Shown here piece by piece: positions 34,622 to 44,001 of a DNA stretch of 64,000 bases. Numbering within the stretch: the stretch's first letter is position 1; every line of letters begins with the position of its first letter. This DNA is from Maribacter algarum (ex Zhang et al. 2020). Lineage in GTDB: Bacteria; Bacteroidota; Bacteroidia; Flavobacteriales; Flavobacteriaceae. The DNA lies in assembly GCF_005885635.1 (NCBI RefSeq), contig NZ_VATY01000001.1, forward strand, positions 1,922,001 through 1,986,000, read 5' to 3'. Under the pieces are notes generated by a model. The model saw only the letters and a list, made by a program, of their open reading frames with translations, had not been told where the DNA came from and did no database searches. Made by a program: the position numbers and the translations under genes.

Positions 34622-34777
34622 TTATTGTTTTTCTTCAAACAACAACCAAAGATTTAAGTCTAGAACGATAGTATCTGGCTTTAGATCAACATTACTTTCA
34701 AATGTGGATTTTTTATCGCTAACTTGAATTATGGAGGTTATAGATTTGCCATTTTCATCTTGATATCCTCTAGACAT
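34622..34777 (-). pseudogene. Possible 3' remnant of an M1-type aminopeptidase
   Basis: A 51-codon frame starts at an ATG inside the last codons of argH (34775-34777) and runs beyond the argH stop to TAA at 34622-34624. Its composition is protein-like: ENGKSITSIIQVSDKKSTFE, then KPDTIVLDLNLWLLFEEK. The ending resembles the tail of Bacteroidota M1 aminopeptidases, which close with a valine-leucine-aspartate stretch and an aromatic WLLF-like end. No upstream peptidase body is present in this frame. I read it as the scar of a deletion that joined argH to the end of another gene. A chance open frame is the alternative. Confidence 0.4.
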
Positions 34778-36015
34778 AGATTACCCAAACTACCTTCATG
34801 AGTGTGTTTGATATTTCGTTTTGGGGTGAAAGTCCCGGCCTGAATTTCTTGACCCATATGTTTATAGGCATCACGGAAAGGCATTCCGTTTTGAACTAAT
34901 TCGTTTAGTGTGTCCACACTAAATAAATAGTCATACTTTGGGTCTTCTACTATGTTTTCATTGATTCGGATTTCTCGCAAACTAAAGGTCAGAATCTCCA
35001 GACACGCTTTCATATCTTGAATTGCAGGTACTAAAATTTCTTTGACCAATTGTAAATCACGATGGTATCCACTAGGGAGATTATTAATCACCAAAGTCAA
35101 TTGATTGGGAATGGACTGCAGCTTATTGCATTTGCCTCTAACCAATTCAAAAACATCGGGATTCTTCTTGTGTGGCATGATGCTTGAACCTGTAGTCAAT
35201 TCATCTGGGAATGAGATGAAATCGAAATTTTGGCTCATATACAAACAAATGTCCATGGCCATTTTTGATAGGGTGGCAGCGATATTGGCCATTCCGAAAG
35301 CTGTTGCTTTTTCGACTTTTCCACGACCCATCTGTGCGGCAACCACATTGTATTTCATGGTTTCAAAACCCATTTCCTGGGTGGTAAAAGTTCTGTCGAT
35401 AGGGAAGGAACTTCCATAGCCTGCGGCACTACCTAATGGATTTTGGTCAGCAACCTTGAAAGCAGCATCAACAAAGTACAAATCATCAATCAAACTTTCC
35501 GCATAGGCTGAAAACCAAAGTCCAAAGGATGAAGGCATGGCAATTTGTAAATGGGTATACCCTGGAAGCAAAATGGTTTTATGCTTTTCAGCTAAATCCA
35601 TAAGCAAATTAAAGAGTGTTTTCGTTTGCGATTTGATTTCTGAAAGTTCAGCCTTCAGGTATAAGTGCATCGCCACTAAAACTTGGTCGTTTCGTGAACG
35701 TGCACTATGGATTTTTTTACCTGCATCACCCAATTTCTCTATTAATAGGAATTCGATTTTTGAATGCATATCCTCAAAAGAATCCTCAATAGTGAACTCT
35801 CCTTTTTCGATAGACGAACCTATTTCGTTAAGTTCTCGTACCAAAGCATCGGTTTCATCAGAAGAGATTAAACCTATTTTCCCTAACATTTTGGCATGAG
35901 CTTTTGAAGCAATTACATCATATTTTGCCAAATGCAAATCAAGTTCACGGTCATTACCTACCGTGAAATGGTCTATTTTTTTATCGGTACTAAATCCTTT
36001 ATCCCAGAGTCGCAT
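34738..36015 (-). CDS. argH: Argininosuccinate lyase
   Basis: A 425-residue enzyme that splits argininosuccinate into arginine and fumarate, the final step of arginine synthesis. It starts LWDKGFSTDKKIDHFTVGND and has the active-site segments IHSARSRNDQV (about 100-110) and LPGYTHLQIAMP. The superfamily signature is GSSIMPHKKNPD, on the flexible loop with the catalytic Ser. It is the last gene of the arginine operon, separated from argE' by a 145-base gap filled with palindromic repeats. Its final codons overlap, in another frame, the possible M1 peptidase remnant. Length is slightly shorter than the enterobacterial enzyme but usual for this phylum. Confidence 0.96.
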   Translation of the reverse strand: MRLWDKGFSTDKKIDHFTVGNDRELDLHLAKYDVIASKAHAKMLGKIGLISSDETDALVRELNEIGSSIEKGEFTIEDSFEDMHSKIEFLLIEKLGDAGKKIHSARSRNDQVLVAMHLYLKAELSEIKSQTKTLFNLLMDLAEKHKTILLPGYTHLQIAMPSSFGLWFSAYAESLIDDLYFVDAAFKVADQNPLGSAAGYGSSFPIDRTFTTQEMGFETMKYNVVAAQMGRGKVEKATAFGMANIAATLSKMAMDICLYMSQNFDFISFPDELTTGSSIMPHKKNPDVFELVRGKCNKLQSIPNQLTLVINNLPSGYHRDLQLVKEILVPAIQDMKACLEILTFSLREIRINENIVEDPKYDYLFSVDTLNELVQNGMPFRDAYKHMGQEIQAGTFTPKRNIKHTHEGSLGNLCLEDIKMKMANL

Positions 36016-36160: not shown

Positions 36161-37225
36161 TTATTTCAAAAACCCATTTAAAATCTTGATATAAAGATCA
36201 ATGCCTTCCTCAATTTCACGAACGTAAATATACTCATCTGCAGAATGCGAACGTGTGCTATCTCCTGGTCCTAACTTTAAGGATTGACATGTCAATGCTG
36301 CTTGGTCGGAAAGGGTAGGGGAACCATAGGTTTTTCTCCCTAAAGCAATTCCAGATTGTACCAAAGGATGGTCTTTGTCGATTTTCGAGGAACCTAATTT
36401 TAGTCCTCGTTCTTGTATTTCACATGGGGCTTCCGATTTTAGTAAGTCCGCAATCTCTTTATTTAAATAGGCGTGGTTTACGCGAACATCTATCACTAAT
36501 TCAACTTGCGCAGGTACGACATTGTGTTGACTACCCGCATTGATTTGGGTAACGGTCATTTTCACATCTCCAAGAGCTTCCGAGGTCTTTTCGAATTTGT
36601 AATTCTTAAACCATTCCAACACTTCTATGGTGTTGTAAATGGAATTGTTGTCATTCGGATGTGCTGCGTGAGAGGGAGTTCCTTTAATAATAGCATCGAA
36701 TACAATCAGTCCTTTTTCGGCAATGGCTAAATCCATCAAAGTGGGTTCGCCAACAATGGCCACATCAATTTCTGGAAGGCTGGGAAGGAGTCCTCTTAAA
36801 CTATTTTCTCCGGCACTTTCTTCTTCCATAGAAGCCACCATTAAAATATTATGATTCAGATTTTCTGCGGCATAATAATGTGTGAATGTGGCAATAAGCG
36901 AAACTAAACAACCACCTGCATCGTTGCTGCCCAAGCCGTACAATTTGCCATCCTCGATATGTGGATGAAATGGGTCTTTGGTGTAAGCCTTGTTGGGTTT
37001 TACAGTATCGTGATGGGAATTAAGAAGAAGTGTAGGTTTGGAGTCATCCCAAAATTTATTCTTGGCAAATACATTGTTATGAATACGTTCAAATGGAATG
37101 TCAAAAGCCTTAAACCAATCTTGAATGGTATCCGCGGTTTTATCTTCTTCAGACGAAAAGGATTGTATTGAAATCAGCTGCTTCAATAATTCTATGGCCT
37201 TGATAGTAAGTTGTTGTTGTGTCAT
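36161..37225 (-). CDS. argE: N-acyl-citrulline deacylase (M20 peptidase family)
   Basis: A 354-residue M20 metallohydrolase. Metal-site motifs are LLNSHHDTVKP, GLGSNDAGGCLVS and the catalytic MEEESAGENS. In E. coli, ArgE deacylates acetylornithine. Here the operon carries an acyl-ornithine transcarbamylase, so the expected substrate is N-succinyl- or N-acetylcitrulline, giving citrulline for argG. I chose ATG 37225: the frame continues 20 codons upstream but would overlap argB, and the ATG one base after the argB stop gives the conserved length. The related M20 enzymes DapE and carboxypeptidase G2 are less likely in this context. Confidence 0.88.
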   Translation of the reverse strand: MTQQQLTIKAIELLKQLISIQSFSSEEDKTADTIQDWFKAFDIPFERIHNNVFAKNKFWDDSKPTLLLNSHHDTVKPNKAYTKDPFHPHIEDGKLYGLGSNDAGGCLVSLIATFTHYYAAENLNHNILMVASMEEESAGENSLRGLLPSLPEIDVAIVGEPTLMDLAIAEKGLIVFDAIIKGTPSHAAHPNDNNSIYNTIEVLEWFKNYKFEKTSEALGDVKMTVTQINAGSQHNVVPAQVELVIDVRVNHAYLNKEIADLLKSEAPCEIQERGLKLGSSKIDKDHPLVQSGIALGRKTYGSPTLSDQAALTCQSLKLGPGDSTRSHSADEYIYVREIEEGIDLYIKILNGFLK

Positions 37226-37226
37226 T

Positions 37227-38006
37227 TTAAATGGTAATCGTTGTAAAAAGTTCATTTTTAGAATCCAACATAGAATGGTGCCCAATACATACTTTTTCTA
37301 CGCCTCTTTCAATAGCATTAAAACAATTATCGATTTTCGGGATCATTCCGTCAGCTATTATTCCCTCGCTTAAAAGTTTTGTATAACTCGGATTGTCAAT
37401 TTGAGCAATCACAGAATCTTCATCGGAAATATCCTTTAAAACTCCCTTTTTCTCAAAGCAATAGTAAAGCGTAGTATCGTAGAAACTACTCATATGAATA
37501 GCCACTTCGGCCGCTATGGTATCCGCATTTGTATTCAAAAGTTGGCCGTGTCCGTCATGGCTCATAGCACAGAAAACAGGGGTTAAGTCAGCCTTCAAAA
37601 GTTTTGAAATCATTTTTTTGTTCACACCGTCTACATCTCCGGCAAAACCATAGTCGATTTCCTCTACGGGGCGTTTGTGTGCTAAAATAGCATTACCATC
37701 AGCGCCACTCAAACCAATAGCATTACATTTATTTGCCTGTAATTGGGCTACGATATTTTTATTAGTTAATCCTGCATACACCATAGTGATTACTTCAAGT
37801 GTTTCGGCATCGGTAATTCTTCTTCCGTCGACCATTTTTGATTCAATACCAAGCTTAGTAGCTAATTGGGTGGCTAATTTTCCACCACCATGGACTAGTA
37901 TTTTGAAACCATCAAAGTCGGCAAAAAGCTTCAGGAACTTCGAAAGCTCCGTTTTGTTTTCAATGACGTTACCGCCGATTTTTATTATGGATAGTTTTTG
38001 CGTCAT
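37227..38006 (-). CDS. argB: N-acylglutamate kinase
   Basis: A 259-residue amino-acid-kinase-fold enzyme that phosphorylates N-acetyl- (or N-succinyl-) glutamate with ATP. The phosphate-binding start is IIKIGGNVIEN (about 7-17), then LVHGGGKLATQLATKLGI binds substrate. ISKLLKADLTPVFCAMSHDG and NADTIAAEVAIHM match the family. Its ATG overlaps the argF' stop codon by four bases (ATGA) and its own stop is one base before the argE' start, so translation is coupled across three genes. It lacks the N-terminal extension linked to arginine feedback inhibition in some bacteria, consistent with control acting elsewhere, such as on the leader peptide. Confidence 0.95.
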   Translation of the reverse strand: MTQKLSIIKIGGNVIENKTELSKFLKLFADFDGFKILVHGGGKLATQLATKLGIESKMVDGRRITDAETLEVITMVYAGLTNKNIVAQLQANKCNAIGLSGADGNAILAHKRPVEEIDYGFAGDVDGVNKKMISKLLKADLTPVFCAMSHDGHGQLLNTNADTIAAEVAIHMSSFYDTTLYYCFEKKGVLKDISDEDSVIAQIDNPSYTKLLSEGIIADGMIPKIDNCFNAIERGVEKVCIGHHSMLDSKNELFTTITI

Positions 38007-38938
38007 GATTCCAATATCTTTTTCAAAACAACCTGCGCAGCAAAAGTTCTGTTATTCGCTTGTTCAATTACTAAAGATTGTTCTCCATCTAAAACCGCAT
38101 CCTCGACTACCACATTTCTTCGAACGGGAAGGCAATGCATGAATTTAGCATTTCCCAATTTTTCGGAGGTCATCATCCAATCGGAATCTTGACTCAGAAC
38201 TTTTCCGTAATCTGAATAACTACTCCAGTTTTTCACGTAGATGAAATCCGCATTTTTACAGGCTTTTTTCTGGTTGTATTCAATCACCATGTCTTTAGTA
38301 ATTTGAGGATTTAATTCATATCCTTCGGGATGAGTAATTACAAAATCTACGTCTTGTAATTGCATCATTTCAACAAAAGAATTGGCAACTGCGTGTGGCA
38401 GAGCTTTAGGATGTGGTGCCCAAGAAAGCACAACTTTTGGCTTTGCTTTGGTATTTTGTTCATCCAATGTAATAGCATCAGCCAGTGCTTGCAGCGGATG
38501 CGCAACAGAACTTTCCATATTGACCACTGGAATGGATGCAAACTTTGTAAATCCATTTAGTACAACTTCCGCTTCGTCTTTTTCTTTATTGGTTAGTGAT
38601 GCAAAGGCACGAATAGCAACAATATCACAAAATTGAGAAACCACTTTCGTTGCTTCTTTGATGTGCTCAGACTTTCCTTGATTCATTACTACTCCATCTT
38701 CAAATTCCAATTGCCAACCTTCGCTTCCGAAGTTCATTACCATCACTTCCATACCCAAATTCAAAGCTGCTTTTTGAGTACTGAGCCGTGTTCGTAGACT
38801 ATTGTTGAAAAACAATAAACATATGGTTTTTCCTTTACCAAGATATTCGAATGCTCTTGGGTTACTCTTGAGTTTTCTTGCTTCTGACACCCAATCGGGA
38901 AGGGAATCTATATCTTTTACGGATAAATAGTGTTTCAT
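38003..38938 (-). CDS. argF': N-succinylornithine (or acetylornithine) carbamoyltransferase
   Basis: A 311-residue transcarbamylase of the Bacteroidota/Xanthomonas acyl-ornithine type. The carbamoyl-phosphate loop reads FFNNSLRTRLSTQKAALNLG (about 43-62) instead of the ornithine enzyme STRT motif. The C-terminal loop has FMHCLPVRRNVVVEDAV. Ornithine-specific motifs are missing. The residue that separates the acetyl- and succinylornithine enzymes (Glu92 in Xanthomonas, Pro90 in B. fragilis) is Ser90 here, within NQGKSEH. Published mutagenesis, as I recall it, showed that Ser at this position gives succinylornithine activity. It overlaps argB by four bases. Confidence 0.92.
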   Translation of the reverse strand: MKHYLSVKDIDSLPDWVSEARKLKSNPRAFEYLGKGKTICLLFFNNSLRTRLSTQKAALNLGMEVMVMNFGSEGWQLEFEDGVVMNQGKSEHIKEATKVVSQFCDIVAIRAFASLTNKEKDEAEVVLNGFTKFASIPVVNMESSVAHPLQALADAITLDEQNTKAKPKVVLSWAPHPKALPHAVANSFVEMMQLQDVDFVITHPEGYELNPQITKDMVIEYNQKKACKNADFIYVKNWSSYSDYGKVLSQDSDWMMTSEKLGNAKFMHCLPVRRNVVVEDAVLDGEQSLVIEQANNRTFAAQVVLKKILES

Positions 38939-38946
38939 AATATTCG

Positions 38947-40077
38947 CTATTGGCTGAGTGCTATTTCTAATTTTTCAAAGAATACATCTAAATCTTCTTT
39001 AGTAATATTTAGGGCGGGTAAAATCCGAAGCACCTGTTTGTCTTTGGCTCCTCCTGTAAACAAATGTTGTTTGTAAATCAGTTTTTTACGGAGTTCGGCT
39101 ACTTCGAAATCAAATTCGAGGCCGAGCATCAATCCACGTCCTTTAGTGCGTTTTACTTGTGGGATTGTCGTTGCTTTTTTATTAAAATAGTCACCTAGTT
39201 TTCTTGCATTTTCGATAAGATTTTCGTTTTCCATGATTTCAAGAACAGCTGTTGTCGCGACACAGGCAAGATGGTTCCCACCAAAAGTAGTTCCCAACAA
39301 TCCATAGGAAGCTTTAATGTTTTCATGAATTAATATACCTCCAACGGGAAAGCCATTGCCCATGCCTTTTGCTATGGAAATAATATCTGGTTGTATACCG
39401 TGATGTTGAAATCCGAAGAATTTACCACTACGCCCAAATCCGGATTGTACTTCGTCCGCTATCAAGACCACTTCGTTTTCCTTACACATTCGACCAATTT
39501 CTTGATAGAATTCGGTAGTGGGTTCGTCTAATCCTCCAACGCCCTGAATCGCTTCAATGATAACTCCACAAACATCTCCTTTTTCGATTTCTGTTTTGAA
39601 AGTAGAAATATTATTTAGAGGAAGAATCGTAACCTTTTGTTGCTTGTTCAGCGGAGCATTGATTTTCTCATTATCCGTTGCAGCAACAGCGGCAGAAGTT
39701 CTTCCATGGAAACCATTTTTAAACGCAATAATTCTGGTTTTTCCTGTATGGAAGGATGCCATTTTCAAGGCATTTTCATTTGCTTCTGCCCCGGAATTGC
39801 ATAAGAACAAATTGTAATTCTCACAATCCGATAACGCACCTAGTTTGGTCGCCAGTTCACCTTGCAACGGATTCTGAACTGCATTACTATAGAAACCGAT
39901 TTTATCTAATTGGTCTTTTAGTCGTTTTACATAATGTGGATGAGAGTGTCCTACGGAAATCACAGCATGACCGCCATAGAAATCTAGATATTCTTGTCCT
40001 TTGTCATCTGTTACTACGATTCCATCCGCGGAAACAGGAGTTACATCATAAAGGGGATATACATCGAATAGGTTCAT
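38947..40077 (-). CDS. argD: N-acylornithine aminotransferase
   Basis: A 376-residue PLP-dependent class III aminotransferase that makes N-acylornithine from the N-acylglutamate semialdehyde. It begins MNLFDVYPLYDVTPVSADG and contains FLCNSGAEANENALKMA (about 85-101), FHGRTSAAVAATDN and the cofactor region IADEVQSGFGRSGKFF, followed by ISIAKGMGNGFPVGG with the PLP-binding Lys. I chose ATG 40077. The frame is open upstream, but those codons lie in a 7-bp periodic repeat, not in conserved protein. It lies eight bases before argF'. Confidence 0.94.
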   Translation of the reverse strand: MNLFDVYPLYDVTPVSADGIVVTDDKGQEYLDFYGGHAVISVGHSHPHYVKRLKDQLDKIGFYSNAVQNPLQGELATKLGALSDCENYNLFLCNSGAEANENALKMASFHTGKTRIIAFKNGFHGRTSAAVAATDNEKINAPLNKQQKVTILPLNNISTFKTEIEKGDVCGVIIEAIQGVGGLDEPTTEFYQEIGRMCKENEVVLIADEVQSGFGRSGKFFGFQHHGIQPDIISIAKGMGNGFPVGGILIHENIKASYGLLGTTFGGNHLACVATTAVLEIMENENLIENARKLGDYFNKKATTIPQVKRTKGRGLMLGLEFDFEVAELRKKLIYKQHLFTGGAKDKQVLRILPALNITKEDLDVFFEKLEIALSQ

Positions 40078-40083
40078 ATTTTT

Positions 40084-40153
40084 TGCTTTTCGCTTTACGC
40101 TTATCGCTCTACCCCAACCTTTAGTGCGATTAGCGTGCGGCAATTAGCGTTTA
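40084..40153. repeat. Heptanucleotide periodic repeat between proC and argD
   Basis: Ten consecutive 7-base units stay in register on the plus strand, for example TGCTTTT, CGCTTTA, CGCTTAT, CGCTCTA, then GCGATTA, GCGTGCG, GCAATTA, GCGTTTA. Units are degenerate, but the periodicity holds throughout. The array fills nearly the whole gap (40078-40155). Confidence 0.72.
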
Positions 40154-40155
40154 GC

Positions 40156-40950
40156 CTATTTTGTTTTAAACTCCGTTATTTTATCAAATGAGGCTACGAT
40201 TCCGCGAATCAAAGAAGAACTCAAACCTTGATGTTCCATTTCGTTAAGACCTTTAATCGTGCAACCCATTGGGGTGGTTACTCTATCGATTTCCTCTTCG
40301 GGATGATTACCTGATTCTATCAACAAACTAGCTGCCCCATTACAGGTGTGCATAGCTAATTCTTGAGCCTCTTTGGCATCGAAACCAAGTTGAATTGCAC
40401 CTTGTGTTGTTGCACGAATCAAACGCATCCAGAAGGCGATTCCACTTGCGCAGATAACTGTAGCAGCTTGCATTTGTTCTTCTGGAATTTCCAAGGAATG
40501 TCCCATTCGATTAAAAATAGCTTTGGTTAAATCAATACGTTTTCTCCCTTTTTCATTACCACAAATACAAGTCATTGACTTTCCAACTGAAATGGCTGTA
40601 TTGGGCATACTTCGAACAATGTAATTATCGGCGCCAATGATGCTTTCCATCTTTGCAATGCTAAAACCGGTAATGGTCGAAATGACTACATGTTTCTCAT
40701 TTAATAAATCTTTGATGTCCTCTAAGATTTGACCAAAATGTGAAGGTTGTACAGCAAAAATTAAAATGTCAGAGTTTTGAACCGCTATTCGGTTATCGGA
40801 AGTGACCGTAACATTTCCGTAGCTTTCAAATTCTTTGATGCTTTCAACATTCCTTTTGGTCATGTACATGTTGGTGGCACCATTGCTGTGTAGCACTCCT
40901 TTTGCAATGGACAATCCTAAGTTTCCTGTTCCTATTATTGCTATTTTCAT
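40156..40950 (-). CDS. proC: Pyrroline-5-carboxylate reductase
   Basis: A 264-residue enzyme reducing pyrroline-5-carboxylate to proline with NAD(P)H. The Rossmann motif is IAIIGTGNLGLSIAKGVLHS (about 2-21) with the C-terminal dimer helix segment GAASLLIESGNHPEEEIDRV and then TTPMGCTIKGLNEME, the P5C reductase signature. It is embedded between argC and argD. Since the pathway's glutamate-semialdehyde chemistry is shared between arginine and proline synthesis, co-regulation is plausible. Heptanucleotide repeats border it on both sides. Confidence 0.93.
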   Translation of the reverse strand: MKIAIIGTGNLGLSIAKGVLHSNGATNMYMTKRNVESIKEFESYGNVTVTSDNRIAVQNSDILIFAVQPSHFGQILEDIKDLLNEKHVVISTITGFSIAKMESIIGADNYIVRSMPNTAISVGKSMTCICGNEKGRKRIDLTKAIFNRMGHSLEIPEEQMQAATVICASGIAFWMRLIRATTQGAIQLGFDAKEAQELAMHTCNGAASLLIESGNHPEEEIDRVTTPMGCTIKGLNEMEHQGLSSSLIRGIVASFDKITEFKTK

Positions 40951-41002: not shown

Positions 41003-41977
41003 TTAATAAACTCCTGCTTTCAATTGTAATCCTTCGCATTCTTCGAAATCGAACATCAAATTCATATTTTGAACGGCTTGTCCTGATGCACCTTTTAGGA
41101 GGTTATCGATAGCTGAGGTTACTAATAAAGTTCCCTCATATTTATGTAAATGAATATGACATTGATTCGTATTCACAACCTGCTTTAAATTAATGGGTTC
41201 TTTAGCGATTTGTGCGAATTTTGCGTCCTTATAAAAATCTTCGAAAAGCTGAATGGCTTCTTCTTCTGTTCCTTCGTATTTTGTGTATGCTGTTGCCAAA
41301 ATACCTCTTGTGAAATTCCCTCTGTTGGGAAGGAAGAACAACTCGCCAACATCTGTTTGTAATGCGTTCAAGCTCTCGTTGATTTCTCCTAAATGCTGAT
41401 GAGTAAAAGGTTTATACCAACTTACATTGTTGTTTCGCCAGCTGAAGTGTGTGGTTTCTGATGGAATAACGCCCGCTCCCGTACTTCCGGTTACGGCATT
41501 TACATGAATAGCTGCACCAAGTAAACCAGCTTTTGCTAGTGGAATCAAGCCTAACTGAATAGCTGTCGCAAAACATCCAGGGTTCGCGATGTATTTGGCT
41601 TCTTCAATTTCATTTTTATAGAGTTCAGGTAATCCGTAAATAAAGTTCTTCCCATTTAAGGTAGCATCTTTTTGAAGACGAAAGTCATTGCTTAAATCAA
41701 TGATTTTAGTTGTTTCTGAAAAGGTGTACTCTCCTAAAAACTTAGTAGAATTTCCATGTCCTAAACAAAGAAAAACTACATCTACATCGGCGTTAACATT
41801 TCCTGTAAAGTGTAAATCCGTGGTGCCCAACAAATCAGGATGTGCTGAAAAAACTGATTTCCCTGCTCTTGTTGTACTGTAAACAAAATCGATTTCAACT
41901 TCTGAGTGATGTAGGAGAATTCGAATCAATTCGCCTCCTGTATATCCTGAACCACCTATTATTCCTGCTTTAATCAT
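41003..41977 (-). CDS. argC: N-acyl-gamma-glutamyl-phosphate reductase
   Basis: A 324-residue NADPH-dependent reductase making N-acylglutamate semialdehyde. It starts IKAGIIGGSGYTGGELIRIL (nucleotide-binding loop), and the catalytic Cys lies in YIANPGCFATAIQLGLIPL (about 130-148). GSTGAGVIPSETTHF and YKPFTHQHLGEI match the ArgC family. I chose ATG 41977, which overlaps the argG end by eight bases; the longer frame would run 68 bases into argG. Coupled translation with argG is likely. Confidence 0.95.
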   Translation of the reverse strand: MIKAGIIGGSGYTGGELIRILLHHSEVEIDFVYSTTRAGKSVFSAHPDLLGTTDLHFTGNVNADVDVVFLCLGHGNSTKFLGEYTFSETTKIIDLSNDFRLQKDATLNGKNFIYGLPELYKNEIEEAKYIANPGCFATAIQLGLIPLAKAGLLGAAIHVNAVTGSTGAGVIPSETTHFSWRNNNVSWYKPFTHQHLGEINESLNALQTDVGELFFLPNRGNFTRGILATAYTKYEGTEEEAIQLFEDFYKDAKFAQIAKEPINLKQVVNTNQCHIHLHKYEGTLLVTSAIDNLLKGASGQAVQNMNLMFDFEECEGLQLKAGVY

Positions 41978-43154
41978 TATTAACGTGATTGTAAATTTTT
42001 CCTGAATTCGACAATATTTTGATAAACCCTTTTGCATCGTCTGCTGACCATCCTTTGTTCATTTCACCGTAGCTTCCGAAGGATGCATTCATCAAATCAT
42101 GTTTTGAGGAGATTCCGTTTAGTCTAAACTGGAACGGATATAATCCTACAAAAACATCTCCTGAAACTGTCTTTTGGGTATCTGTCAAGAAAGCTTCGAT
42201 ATTTCGCATTACGGCATCCAAATAATTTCCTTCATGTAATAACATTCCATAGAAATTACCTTGTTGTTCCTTTTGAAATTGTTGCCATTTGGTTAGGGTG
42301 TGCTTTTCTAATAAATGATGCGCTTTTATAATAATTAAAGCTGCCGCAGCTTCAAAACCAACTCGGCCTTTAATTCCGATAATGGTGTCACCCACATGAA
42401 TATCTCGTCCAATGGCATACTTTGATGCTATGGCTTCCATTTTCTCAATATTGGCTACAGGATTGTCTTTTACACCATCAATAGATACTAGCTCACCCTT
42501 TTCAAAAGTCAACTTAACTTCAGTGGGTTCTTTCTCTTGCAACTGACTCGGATACGCTGAATCAGGTAACGGTTTTTCAGAAGTTAAGGTCTCATCACCG
42601 CCAACAGAAGTTCCCCAAAGTCCACGATTAACGGAGTATTTTGCTTTTTCCCAAGGATAATCTACGCCATTAGCTTTGAGGTATTCAATTTCTTCTTCCC
42701 GTGCCAGTTTGTTATCCCGAATAGGAGTGATAATTTCAATTTCTGGTGCTATAATTTGAAAAATCATATCAAACCTGACTTGGTCGTTACCCGCACCTGT
42801 ACTTCCATGGGCGATATATTTTGCCCCTACTTTTTTTGCATAGTTGACGATTTCAATGGCTTGAACAATTCTTTCAGAACTAACCGAAAGGGGGTATGTA
42901 TTATTCTTCAGAACATTTCCGAAGATGAGGTATTTAACCACTTTTTCGTAGAAGGTCTGCACGGCGTCAATGGATGTATAAGACGTTGCGCCTAACTGTA
43001 AGGCCTTATTTTCAATGGATTTGATTTCTTCGGATGAAAACCCGCCAGTATCGACGCTGACGGCATGTACTTCATATCCTTTTTCTTTACTCAGATATTT
43101 GGCGCAGTAACTGGTATCCAATCCACCGCTATATGCTAAAACTAATTTGTTCAT
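41970..43154 (-). CDS. argG: Argininosuccinate synthase
   Basis: A 394-residue ATP-dependent enzyme joining citrulline and aspartate. The ATP-pyrophosphatase loop is LVLAYSGGLDTSYCAKYL (about 3-20). AHGSTGAGNDQVRF is the citrulline/aspartate-binding signature, and KYSVNRGLWGTSVGG follows. The start ATG overlaps the stop of the GNAT gene by four bases (ATGA), so both are translated together. It is the second gene of the operon even though its reaction comes near the end of the pathway. Confidence 0.96.
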   Translation of the reverse strand: MNKLVLAYSGGLDTSYCAKYLSKEKGYEVHAVSVDTGGFSSEEIKSIENKALQLGATSYTSIDAVQTFYEKVVKYLIFGNVLKNNTYPLSVSSERIVQAIEIVNYAKKVGAKYIAHGSTGAGNDQVRFDMIFQIIAPEIEIITPIRDNKLAREEEIEYLKANGVDYPWEKAKYSVNRGLWGTSVGGDETLTSEKPLPDSAYPSQLQEKEPTEVKLTFEKGELVSIDGVKDNPVANIEKMEAIASKYAIGRDIHVGDTIIGIKGRVGFEAAAALIIIKAHHLLEKHTLTKWQQFQKEQQGNFYGMLLHEGNYLDAVMRNIEAFLTDTQKTVSGDVFVGLYPFQFRLNGISSKHDLMNASFGSYGEMNKGWSADDAKGFIKILSNSGKIYNHVNND

Positions 43155-43765
43155 TTCTTATTCTTTTTGAGGAACAATTGTTCCTTAATACTTTTTAATC
43201 GATTAAATGCCTTTCCATTTACTTTCTTTTCTTTCTTAGGTTTTGTTGCAGGGTCATAGAGCATGCCTGTACACAAACACATTTTTTGTTCTGTTCTCGT
43301 TAAAACGTCAAAGTTCTTACAGGTTTGACAACCTTTCCAGAATTCGGGGTCATCGGTGAGTTCAGAAAAGGTTACGGGTTTATAGCCCAACTCATAGTTG
43401 ATTTTCATGACGGGTAATCCTGTCGTAATCCCGAATATTTTCGCATCTGGAAATTTTTCCTTCGACAACTCGAAAATCTTCTGCTTGATACTTTTTGCAA
43501 GTCCTTTTCCACGAAAATCAGGATGTACGATAAGTCCCGAATTAGCGACATACTTTGCATGCCCCCAAATTTCTATATAGCAAAAACCAGCAAACGTATC
43601 GCCATCCAAAGCGATTACGGCATTGCCATTTTCAAGCTTTCCGCGGATATACTCAGGTGTACGTTTTGCAATTCCCGTACCGCGAACTTTGGCAGAAACG
43701 GCTATGGTATCGCAAATGATTTGCGCGTATTTGAAATGTGATGTGTTAGCAACAACAATATTCAT
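43151..43765 (-). CDS. GNAT acyltransferase, candidate N-acylglutamate synthase
   Basis: A 204-residue acyl-CoA-dependent acyltransferase. The GNAT core spans about 1-135: the acyl-CoA loop is VHPDFRGKGLAKSIKQKIF (90-108; RGKGLA). A C-terminal extension holds four cysteines, Cys146, Cys149, Cys163 and Cys165 (CxxC ... CxC), followed by a very basic tail. It is the first gene of the arginine operon behind the leader peptide, and no argA or argJ gene is present. I therefore infer that it makes N-succinyl- or N-acetylglutamate, the step otherwise missing. The Cys set could bind zinc or an iron-sulfur centre. Similar GNAT genes sit at the head of arginine loci in other Bacteroidota, to my knowledge. 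Confidence 0.85.
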   Translation of the reverse strand: MNIVVANTSHFKYAQIICDTIAVSAKVRGTGIAKRTPEYIRGKLENGNAVIALDGDTFAGFCYIEIWGHAKYVANSGLIVHPDFRGKGLAKSIKQKIFELSKEKFPDAKIFGITTGLPVMKINYELGYKPVTFSELTDDPEFWKGCQTCKNFDVLTRTEQKMCLCTGMLYDPATKPKKEKKVNGKAFNRLKSIKEQLFLKKNKK

Positions 43766-43820
43766 TGCTATGAAAATTTAAAAGAGTTAAAGAAAAATTT
43801 GATGGTTTGTGCGGAACTGG

Positions 43821-43830
43821 ACTCACCTAA
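43821..43830. repeat. Direct repeat ACTCACCTAA, copy 1
   Basis: ACTCACCTAA here is repeated exactly at 43966-43975, and the identity reaches GRACTCACCTAA with one ambiguous base. In the arginine transcript (minus strand) this copy lies between the leader-peptide stop and the GNAT start. Confidence 0.7.
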
Positions 43831-43848
43831 ATTCCATGAAATGTATAG

Positions 43849-43914
43849 TACCCTTACGGGCGACGGCGACGGGGCGCGAATGGACGTACGGGAGCAGTAA
43901 TGCTCGTTAGGGTA
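43849..43914 (-). promoter_or_regulatory. Candidate attenuator fold of the arginine leader
   Basis: In the minus-strand RNA, UACCCUAACG (43905-43914) can pair with CGUAAGGGUA (43849-43858) at nine of ten positions, the 3' half spanning the leader stop codon. A competing local hairpin, GAGCA-UUAC-UGCUC (43892-43905), lies inside. A ribosome held at the Arg run (43860-43871) would block the long-range stem. No strong terminator with a U-run is evident, so the output step is unclear. Confidence 0.45.
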
Positions 43915-43937
43915 GATATGTTATTCTGTGCGTTCAT
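43854..43937 (-). CDS. Arginine-rich leader peptide of the arginine operon
   Basis: A 27-codon open frame that is far too short for routine gene calling. It begins ATG at 43935-43937, reads MNAQNNIST at the start and ends PVRPFAPRRRRP before TAA at 43854-43856. Residues 23-26 are four consecutive Arg codons (CGT CGC CGT CGC), with a fifth Arg at 18. The frame lies 88 bases upstream of the first gene of a nine-gene arginine operon, on the same strand. This is the layout of an amino-acid attenuator: slow decoding of Arg codons in arginine starvation would stall the ribosome and alter folding of the downstream RNA. Its 3' half is strikingly GC-rich in an AT-rich region. The mechanism is inferred; the reading frame is directly seen. 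Confidence 0.8.
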   Translation of the reverse strand: MNAQNNISTLTSITAPVRPFAPRRRRP

Positions 43938-43965
43938 TATGAGGTAAATGTACAAATTATCTTGA

Positions 43966-43975
43966 ACTCACCTAA
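43966..43975. repeat. Direct repeat ACTCACCTAA, copy 2
   Basis: The second copy of the repeat at 43821-43830, starting 145 bases from the first. In the minus-strand message it precedes the leader-peptide ATG by 28 bases, so the two copies bracket the leader frame. Confidence 0.7.
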
Positions 43976-44001
43976 TCCTGATGATATTTTTTACAAAAAC
44001 T

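Follow-up and report, generated by a model that had tools for sequence, protein, structure and literature searches.

A nine-gene arginine operon lies on the minus strand of the 64,000-nucleotide stretch of Maribacter algarum DNA that was analysed here as a whole (the window). Its first gene (43151..43765, on the minus strand, as are all features of the window given below) encodes a GNAT acetyltransferase recognised by Pfam PF00583/PF13508, with no NCBIfam model above cut-off, whose product perhaps, judging from the gene's place, carries out the acetylglutamate-forming step. The other genes comprise argG (41970..43154, TIGR00032), argC (41003..42037, TIGR01850, with a listed ORF start that is probably too early), proC (40156..40950, TIGR00112), argB (37227..38006, TIGR00761) and argH (34738..36015, TIGR00838), all above the model cut-off, together with an argD-like transaminase gene (38947..40143, TIGR00707) and an ArgE/DapE-like deacylase gene (36161..37285, TIGR01910), both under the curated cut-off, and an N-acetylornithine carbamoyltransferase-like gene (38003..38938, NF003384, scoring 279.4 against a cut-off of 288). 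A GNAT match with an internal TAA was seen in three other loci (L019, L175 and L182).

Upstream of the GNAT gene is a short frame containing consecutive codons for the pathway product; it encodes the leader peptide MNAQNNISTLTSITAPVRPFAPRRRRP (43854..43937), and its stop codon lies 88 nt upstream of the GNAT ATG at 43765. The original prediction had drawn attention to this frame, and re-reading of the sequence bore out its coordinates, its peptide, its four consecutive Arg codons (43860-43871) and the extra Arg codon nearby; the sequence and the gene models likewise agree with the 88-nt gap that it gave between the leader and the first gene of the nine-gene operon. Of the window's 809 ATG frames with 8-60 aa, one contains RRRR, and since first-order Markov sequence gives 0.27 such frames per 64 kb, with no more than 2 in any of 60 runs, the Arg run by itself is weak evidence. 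The hairpin core downstream of the leader is found in 102 of 110 loci, and on this conservation the leader frame counts as real, an assignment that is also in keeping with its conserved end and its bias towards CGY codons.

A promoter −7 box, TACATTTA, precedes the frame (43945..43952) and agrees with the flavobacterial consensus TAnnTTTG. Because the published text places this box at −12 to −5 (PMC9723704), we predict a transcription start approximately 3 nt upstream of the leader ATG, which would make the mRNA nearly leaderless. Among 59 ATG leaders of 24-33 aa, TAnnTTTN stands 5-10 nt upstream of the ATG in 43, the distance being 7 nt in 38. Further upstream of the promoter, ATTAGGTGAGTTCAAG (43961-43976) resembles TTTAGGTGAGTCCAGT in the hairpin-2 region (43816-43831), a likeness which by eye is common only to L004 and, partly, L006 and is probably due to chance.

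The RNA contains two hairpins. Hairpin 1 (GCCC-GUAA-GGGU, 43850..43861), recognised from the alignment, the consensus fold and a match to covariance model R1, extends from within the last Arg codon across the Pro and stop codons. Hairpin 2 (GGAAUU-UA-GG-UGAGU-CC-AGUUCC, with the core GG-UGNGY-CC, 43813..43835), recognised from covariation and an R1 match, begins 18 nt past the leader stop. From hairpin 2 to the first start codon runs a G-poor stretch (43766..43812), which in the comparison of 99 loci has a G content of 5.9% and a median length of 47 nt.

Conservation of the leader and its hairpins

A GNAT gene is present in 35 of 59 related genomes. The comparison used 110 loci picked by likeness of the GNAT gene, 30 from related genomes and the top-ranking 80 of 587 confirmed loci in named genomes; among these best 80 of 587 the closest GNAT genes were those of Maribacter, at 82-85% identity. 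The hairpin-2 core GGTGNGYCC stands upstream of GNAT in 102 of the 110 loci (99 distinct, the other three being exact duplicates), a constancy that is partly by construction because GGTGNGYCC served as the search motif itself. The eight loci without the core are L026-L030, from other families of the order, and L074, L104 and L124, in which by eye a hairpin-1-like stem is kept and a hairpin with a different loop replaces hairpin 2; changed loops were seen in L074, L104, L124 and also L176. Two loci from another family of the order, L027 and L028, have similar Arg-rich frames (...TRRCAM...RRRPVR) upstream of GNAT with no hairpin-2 core.

Conservation of a short frame with an Arg run ahead of the GNAT-argG pair had been proposed as a check on the original prediction, and relatives do have one: in 98 of the 102 core-bearing loci the frame has paired Arg codons. 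A script placed a frame at 99 of these loci (duplicates included), of which 79 end in RRP-stop, two in RPRP-stop and 18 otherwise, and among these 18 the script frame of L125 is wrong, its real frame ending in RVRRFFPRPLGL and a stop. The three loci left unassigned by the script (L021, L073 and L108) end in FPRP-stop or RPRP-stop, outside the RR pattern. The stop does not directly follow the Pro codon in 17 of the 98 correctly framed loci (e.g. RRPLGV-stop) and then often lies just past hairpin 1; by eye these 17 retain a hairpin-1-like stem. Where frames end at the Pro codon, the stop and the core are 22-27 nt apart.

Both the frame and the sensed codons are conserved, with drift at synonymous sites. 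CGT and CGC account for 373 of the 389 Arg codons (96%) among the last 11 leader codons, and CGY for 203 of 217 at codons −12 to −5, ahead of hairpin 1 (97 distinct frames), against 205 of 636 (32%) in the 46 ORFs of the window that reach 200 aa or more, whose most frequent Arg codon is AGA. In all 54 RRRP-stop leaders, positions 1 and 2 of the Arg codons are invariant C-G, position 3 being variable in the first two and fixed in the last, which sits in hairpin 1. Such a pattern is what selection on codons, plus RNA pairing at the leader end, would leave.

Alignment and consensus folding give hairpin 1 as CGCCC-GUAA-GGGUG. It is near-invariant across the 40 sequences of alignment A3, with covariation silent and pairing not proved there; by eye, compensated variants occur in L124, L017, L090, L023 and L024, with CGACC/GGUCG in L124, where CGA codons preserve RRP-stop, and GCAC/GUGC in L017 and L090. 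Hairpin 2 covaries clearly: own arms pair at −7.24 kcal/mol and swapped arms at −4.67 (sd 0.17; 99 distinct loci), and the best among 200 permutations reached −5.03. A3 consists of 40 of the 60 loci, among the 99, whose hairpin-2 stem fits one register, and shows two-sided changes at five hairpin-2 pairs, with 96.7% of cells pairing as opposed to at most 59.2% in slid versions, figures that lean towards the hairpin-2 structure because the loci were chosen to fit one register. The register is shifted by one in 31 of the 99 loci, the window included, and eight fit neither. The core reads GGTGAGTCC in 74 of the 99 and otherwise GGTG[TC]GTCC or GGTG[CT]GCCC. The M. algarum genome has GGTGAGTCC at 15 sites, with the hairpin-2 stem at the arg site alone, which rules out a second copy of the element among the other sites.

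Folding of the free RNA predicts hairpin 1 with a probability of 0.07 and hairpin 2 with 0.08 in the window; over 94 loci the predicted probability exceeds 0.5 for hairpin 1 in 72% and for hairpin 2 in 55%. Hairpin 1, the structure over the sensed codons, which shares the stop and part of the last Arg codon with the frame, barely varies and is weakly predicted in the window RNA, and these low fold probabilities count against a simple reading for the window sequence itself.

Model R1, built from A3 with the window left out, scored the window at 66.2 bits (43812-43873), L104 at 27.8 bits and L124 at 14.6 bits, and gave no match at the L074 leader. Across 246 genomes of the order it matched 18 at E ≤ 0.01, 15 in the family and three, near threshold, in other families; its matches in families f7 and f9 (E 0.005-0.008), and a second match in genome G195 (0.003), are probably chance. 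Among the genomes listed without an R1 match, the core was absent from all 15 with a GNAT relative, one of which (L176) has a hairpin-1-like stem with a changed loop and 13 of which are from genus g146. The strict pattern CGYCGCCCNTWRGGG...GGTGNGYCC was found in 166 of 397 family genomes, representing 113 of 237 genera, and was absent from the other 231; among the matches listed it occurs at most once per genome, with none for a reversed-pattern control. When 30 of the 166 sites were fetched, all had the GNAT motif downstream, at a distance of 128-143 nt in 28 and of 328 nt and 230 nt in L143 and L158, respectively. The element is common, yet far from universal in the family.

No Rfam family reached its gathering threshold in the window, and no leader match was obtained at relaxed E-values in sets of 18 and nine loci. 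In the flank of L098 (5973-6097) there is a near-threshold match to the Flavo-1 RNA (RF01705, 40.2 bits against 42). Other roles for the conserved core were considered. Kissing of its GGUG with the CGCC of the Arg codons is conceivable in principle but unsupported, L017 and L090 by eye keeping the core without the hairpin-1 CGCC, and a Shine-Dalgarno role of AGGUGA, though still conceivable, is likewise unsupported since the fifth core base, which is A, T or C, would weaken pairing. Mini-frames within hairpin 2 are, by eye, not conserved in appearance.

Terminator search and other leaders

In the window, a simple consensus scan between the leader and GNAT found no intrinsic terminator, with 0.4 expected in shuffles. 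Pairing of the leader start, and of hairpin 1 with the spacer, with the downstream stretch was no better for own than for swapped partners (57 loci, a few of them tandem), and between the spacer or hairpin-2 arms and that stretch there was no conserved pairing, own partners doing no better than a relative's (99 loci). Hairpin 1 with the spacer paired with its own hairpin 2 at −7.03 and with swapped ones at −7.09 (sd 0.11; 60 single-leader loci); over all 99 loci it did slightly better with its own 5′ arm of hairpin 2 (−6.80, against −6.56 for swapped arms; sd 0.11) and no better with its own 3′ arm. With an empty scan and swap tests giving no conserved long-range pairing, a terminator in the window-type leader was rejected, and a window fold in which the 5′ arm of hairpin 2 is taken up by the pre-start stretch, hiding the start site, was rejected as a general mechanism, being unconserved. 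The original prediction had presented the leader as an attenuator: a conserved Arg-codon leader before the arg operon is indeed there, but in the window-type leaders these searches showed neither an intrinsic terminator nor conserved alternative pairing, and as they yielded no terminator we do not file the element as a classical attenuator. The two hairpins, the codon bias, the tandem leaders of relatives and the parallel Thr leader lie beyond what that prediction had noticed.

Approximately 38-39 of the 99 loci have a second, upstream Arg-rich leader (e.g. MKNLKNKIRCSVPGLPARNYRRCF), a count in which L064 is probably wrongly classed and other starts are uncertain. A U-rich stretch downstream of the stop of this tandem leader 1 pairs with its first codons (AAAATACGT or variants of it), this long-range stem reaching −13.4 kcal/mol with own and −10.2 with swapped partners (sd 0.39; 39 loci), and in L092, L109 and L111 the arms are changed yet matching. 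Judged from its sequence, this stem resembles an intrinsic terminator, one that a stalled ribosome would keep from closing. The window-type leader is without it. Operons with tandem leaders probably have two attenuators in series, and by parsimony an ancestral attenuator pair may have been trimmed differently between lineages. The tandem loci include L016-L021, L070-L072, L076, L080-L084, L087, L089-L094 and L096-L101, besides others; the upstream leader is often of the form K-N-K-I-R-P/C...RRRF-stop with A-rich first codons, and by eye GTG or TTG is often the start codon of the second leader.

Other amino acid operons of the same genome were also inspected. A Thr-rich leader before the aspartate kinase operon (L129/L190, contig C14 near 161,600) ends in TTPMG-stop over the hairpin ACCCCTATGGGGT, which with its tail AATTTGCTAT is terminator-like by scan (1 found, 0.2 expected). 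At the Thr leader end, ACCCC-N3-GGGGT occurs in 14 of the 16 loci examined (of 30), the M. algarum locus included; among the 16, L205 is without the hairpin and the leader start of L204 was not found. This leader and its counterparts in relatives (L191-L203) end in a Thr run followed by PLG-stop or PMG-stop, and approximately 40 nt further on comes another small hairpin (by eye; e.g. GCCTnTTTAGGC), an arrangement resembling that of the arg leader. The stop-codon hairpin recurs in Arg and Thr leaders, and the GGUGNGYCC hairpin 2 is seen only before the arg operon. The his operon (L126 2030-2330, contig C12) has a His leader, MRNKNTHHHLVTGCQAR, followed before hisG by a 12-bp terminator with a T-rich tail, and for ilvD nothing clear was found in the way of a leader in this genome.

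Genus g146 has another, conserved leader before the operon (e.g. MNKTSLHITSLSRTNRPTTSPEVRML), with few Arg codons and without the two hairpins, in 11 of 13 loci. Its long-range stem gave −7.7 with own, −7.9 with swapped and −6.2 with shuffled partners (sd 0.57), the 11 sequences being too alike for this comparison. These leaders (L175, L177-L186) contain SPEVRML or SPEVRTL and no GGTGNGYCC hairpin.

A candidate switch for arginine synthesis

In the best-studied bacteria arginine biosynthesis is under the control of the ArgR repressor. The ArgR C-terminal domain (PF02863) was found in none of 58 genomes of the order, that of M. algarum included, and a control search for it was positive in eight of 14 reference genomes, a Bacteroides among them. 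Instead of ArgR, the arg operon of many Flavobacteriaceae has an Arg-codon leader with a covarying RNA, and from their sequences the leader and its two hairpins probably form a switch that tunes arginine synthesis in flavobacteria in which no ArgR was found. Some form of sensing in which a ribosome stalls on the Arg codons is likely, and is the best-supported step; that the leader is a sensor of arginine charging for the arg operon which works by opening a hairpin, as set out below, we consider reasonably likely.

Transcription would begin a few nt upstream of the leader ATG, and a ribosome would load immediately. With ample arginine it would pass the CGY Arg codons, halt at the UAA within hairpin 1 and depart, upon which hairpin 1 could fold beside hairpin 2 and downstream expression would drop. 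When charged Arg-tRNA is scarce, a ribosome stalled on the last Arg codons would mask hairpin 1 and hold it open, leaving the operon on. We infer translation, stalling and the direction of the response alike. The likeliest outputs of such a switch are termination, whether by Rho or at a weak site with the aid of factors, and mRNA processing, favoured because neither an intrinsic terminator nor a pairing that sequesters the start is conserved in window-type leaders; we rank them above a hidden intrinsic terminator, and that in turn above readings that invoke an arrest peptide or RNA alone. More tentatively, and on balance doubtfully, the arrangement may belong to a wider terminator-free form of leader control, common to Arg and Thr operons and replacing ArgR, in which a nearly leaderless frame, a C/G hairpin at the stop codon and, at a nearly constant distance from it, an output hairpin act via Rho, RNA processing or an RNA-binding factor.

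Transcription attenuation of the classical trp/his type, with hairpin 1 or 2 as a weak intrinsic terminator aided by NusA/NusG, seems unlikely. The His leader of the same genome does have a textbook terminator, and the stop-codon hairpin of the Thr leader is terminator-like, so that hairpin 1 might be a weak one; the covarying long-range stem after leader 1 in tandem loci ends in a U-rich stretch, short U runs follow hairpin 2 in some relatives, and hairpin 1 with the spacer slightly favours its own hairpin-2 5′ arm over the 99 loci. Against this, the window has no terminator-like site, hairpin 2 being followed there by GCACAAACC, and the single-leader loci show no conserved pairing of the antiterminator type. 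The same ribosome could alternatively be stalled while terminating, by free arginine or ornithine and not by uncharged tRNA, through arrest of the nascent chain at RRRRP-stop as in TnaC and SpeFL. Pro-stop is a known arrest context and RRP-stop ends 79 of the 99 frames, but conservation across genera does not extend to the residues upstream, the frames range from 9 aa (MRRIFPRRP) to more than 30 aa, the stop lies elsewhere, often just past hairpin 1, in 17 of the 98 correctly framed loci, and the strict preference for CGY codons points towards sensing of tRNA. The conserved arrest residues and fixed stop context of TnaC and SpeFL were not found, the Arg-Pro end alone being widely common, and we regard arrest as improbable here.

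It is very improbable, to our minds, that hairpins 1 and 2 act chiefly as an RNA element bound by a protein, a part of the ribosome or a metabolite, with the short frame secondary. Such a role would suit the core GGTGAGTCC in 74 of 99 loci, which is more constant than the peptide (within the motif searched), as well as a hairpin 1 that stays put where the stop moves and the AGGUGA of hairpin 2, which resembles the complement of the 16S tail. It would not account for Arg codons ahead of hairpin 1 that are kept as codons with synonymous drift, for a tandem leader 1 that is likewise Arg-rich without these hairpins, or for a Thr leader that couples Thr codons with a similar stop hairpin. A chance frame without function has next to no probability: the Markov expectation of 0.27 RRRR short frames per 64 kb leaves room for one, but it is refuted by conservation at a single location, the strict pattern being present in 113 genera.

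Comparison with known systems

An Arg-codon leader with a covarying RNA, in an order where 58 genomes yielded no ArgR, offers a testable answer to how Flavobacteriaceae, a large environmental family, may control arginine synthesis, and the single leader, the tandem leaders and the leader with another structure form a natural series in which the construction and exchange of attenuators can be studied.

The trp, his, thr and leu operons of E. coli are governed by amino acid leader-peptide attenuators. The arg element is like these leaders in its short 5′ frame, rich in codons for the product, and in an RNA structure that overlaps those codons. Unlike them, it would sense arginine on an mRNA that is predicted to be nearly leaderless, and it has a conserved hairpin-2 core and, in window-type arg leaders, no intrinsic terminator or antiterminator that we could find.

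The published text on rbfL of Staphylococcus aureus describes a short frame that senses arginine limitation when ribosomes pause at its Arg codons (PMC13009471). There the peptide has 8 aa with AGA and AGG codons, covers the Shine-Dalgarno sequence of the next gene and lowers a biofilm regulator (PMC13009471), whereas the arg leader has a run of CGY codons, lies 88 nt from the next gene and precedes arginine biosynthesis. Pseudomonas aeruginosa carA, which serves arginine as well as pyrimidine synthesis, likewise has a leader peptide (PMC4997734); for this gene the text consulted describes arginine control of transcription and possible pyrimidine attenuation and does not mention Arg codons (PMC4997734).

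Within the phylum, leader-peptide attenuation has been proposed upstream of amino acid operons in Flavobacterium psychrophilum, of the same family, and structured 5′ elements stand upstream of pheA and hisG in other genera (PMC9723704); arginine is not named in the section of that main text on leader-type elements (PMC9723704). Possible leader peptides are also noted in the part of the literature on Bacteroides thetaiotaomicron that was consulted (PMC7366714), and no arginine leader of the Bacteroidetes was found in the main-text literature searched. The Bacteroid-trp RNA (RF01692) is a cis-regulatory RNA of the Bacteroidetes, upstream of trp genes judging by its name (PMC2864571), and the arg element matches neither it nor any other Rfam family. 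For the GUCCY-hairpin motif, compared by name only, name and phylum suggest a hairpin with a conserved GUCC (PMC2864571), whereas in the arg hairpin GUCC is mostly followed by A or G, not Y. An Arg-codon leader joined to a covarying RNA element that is absent from Rfam would be a new variation on leader-peptide control.
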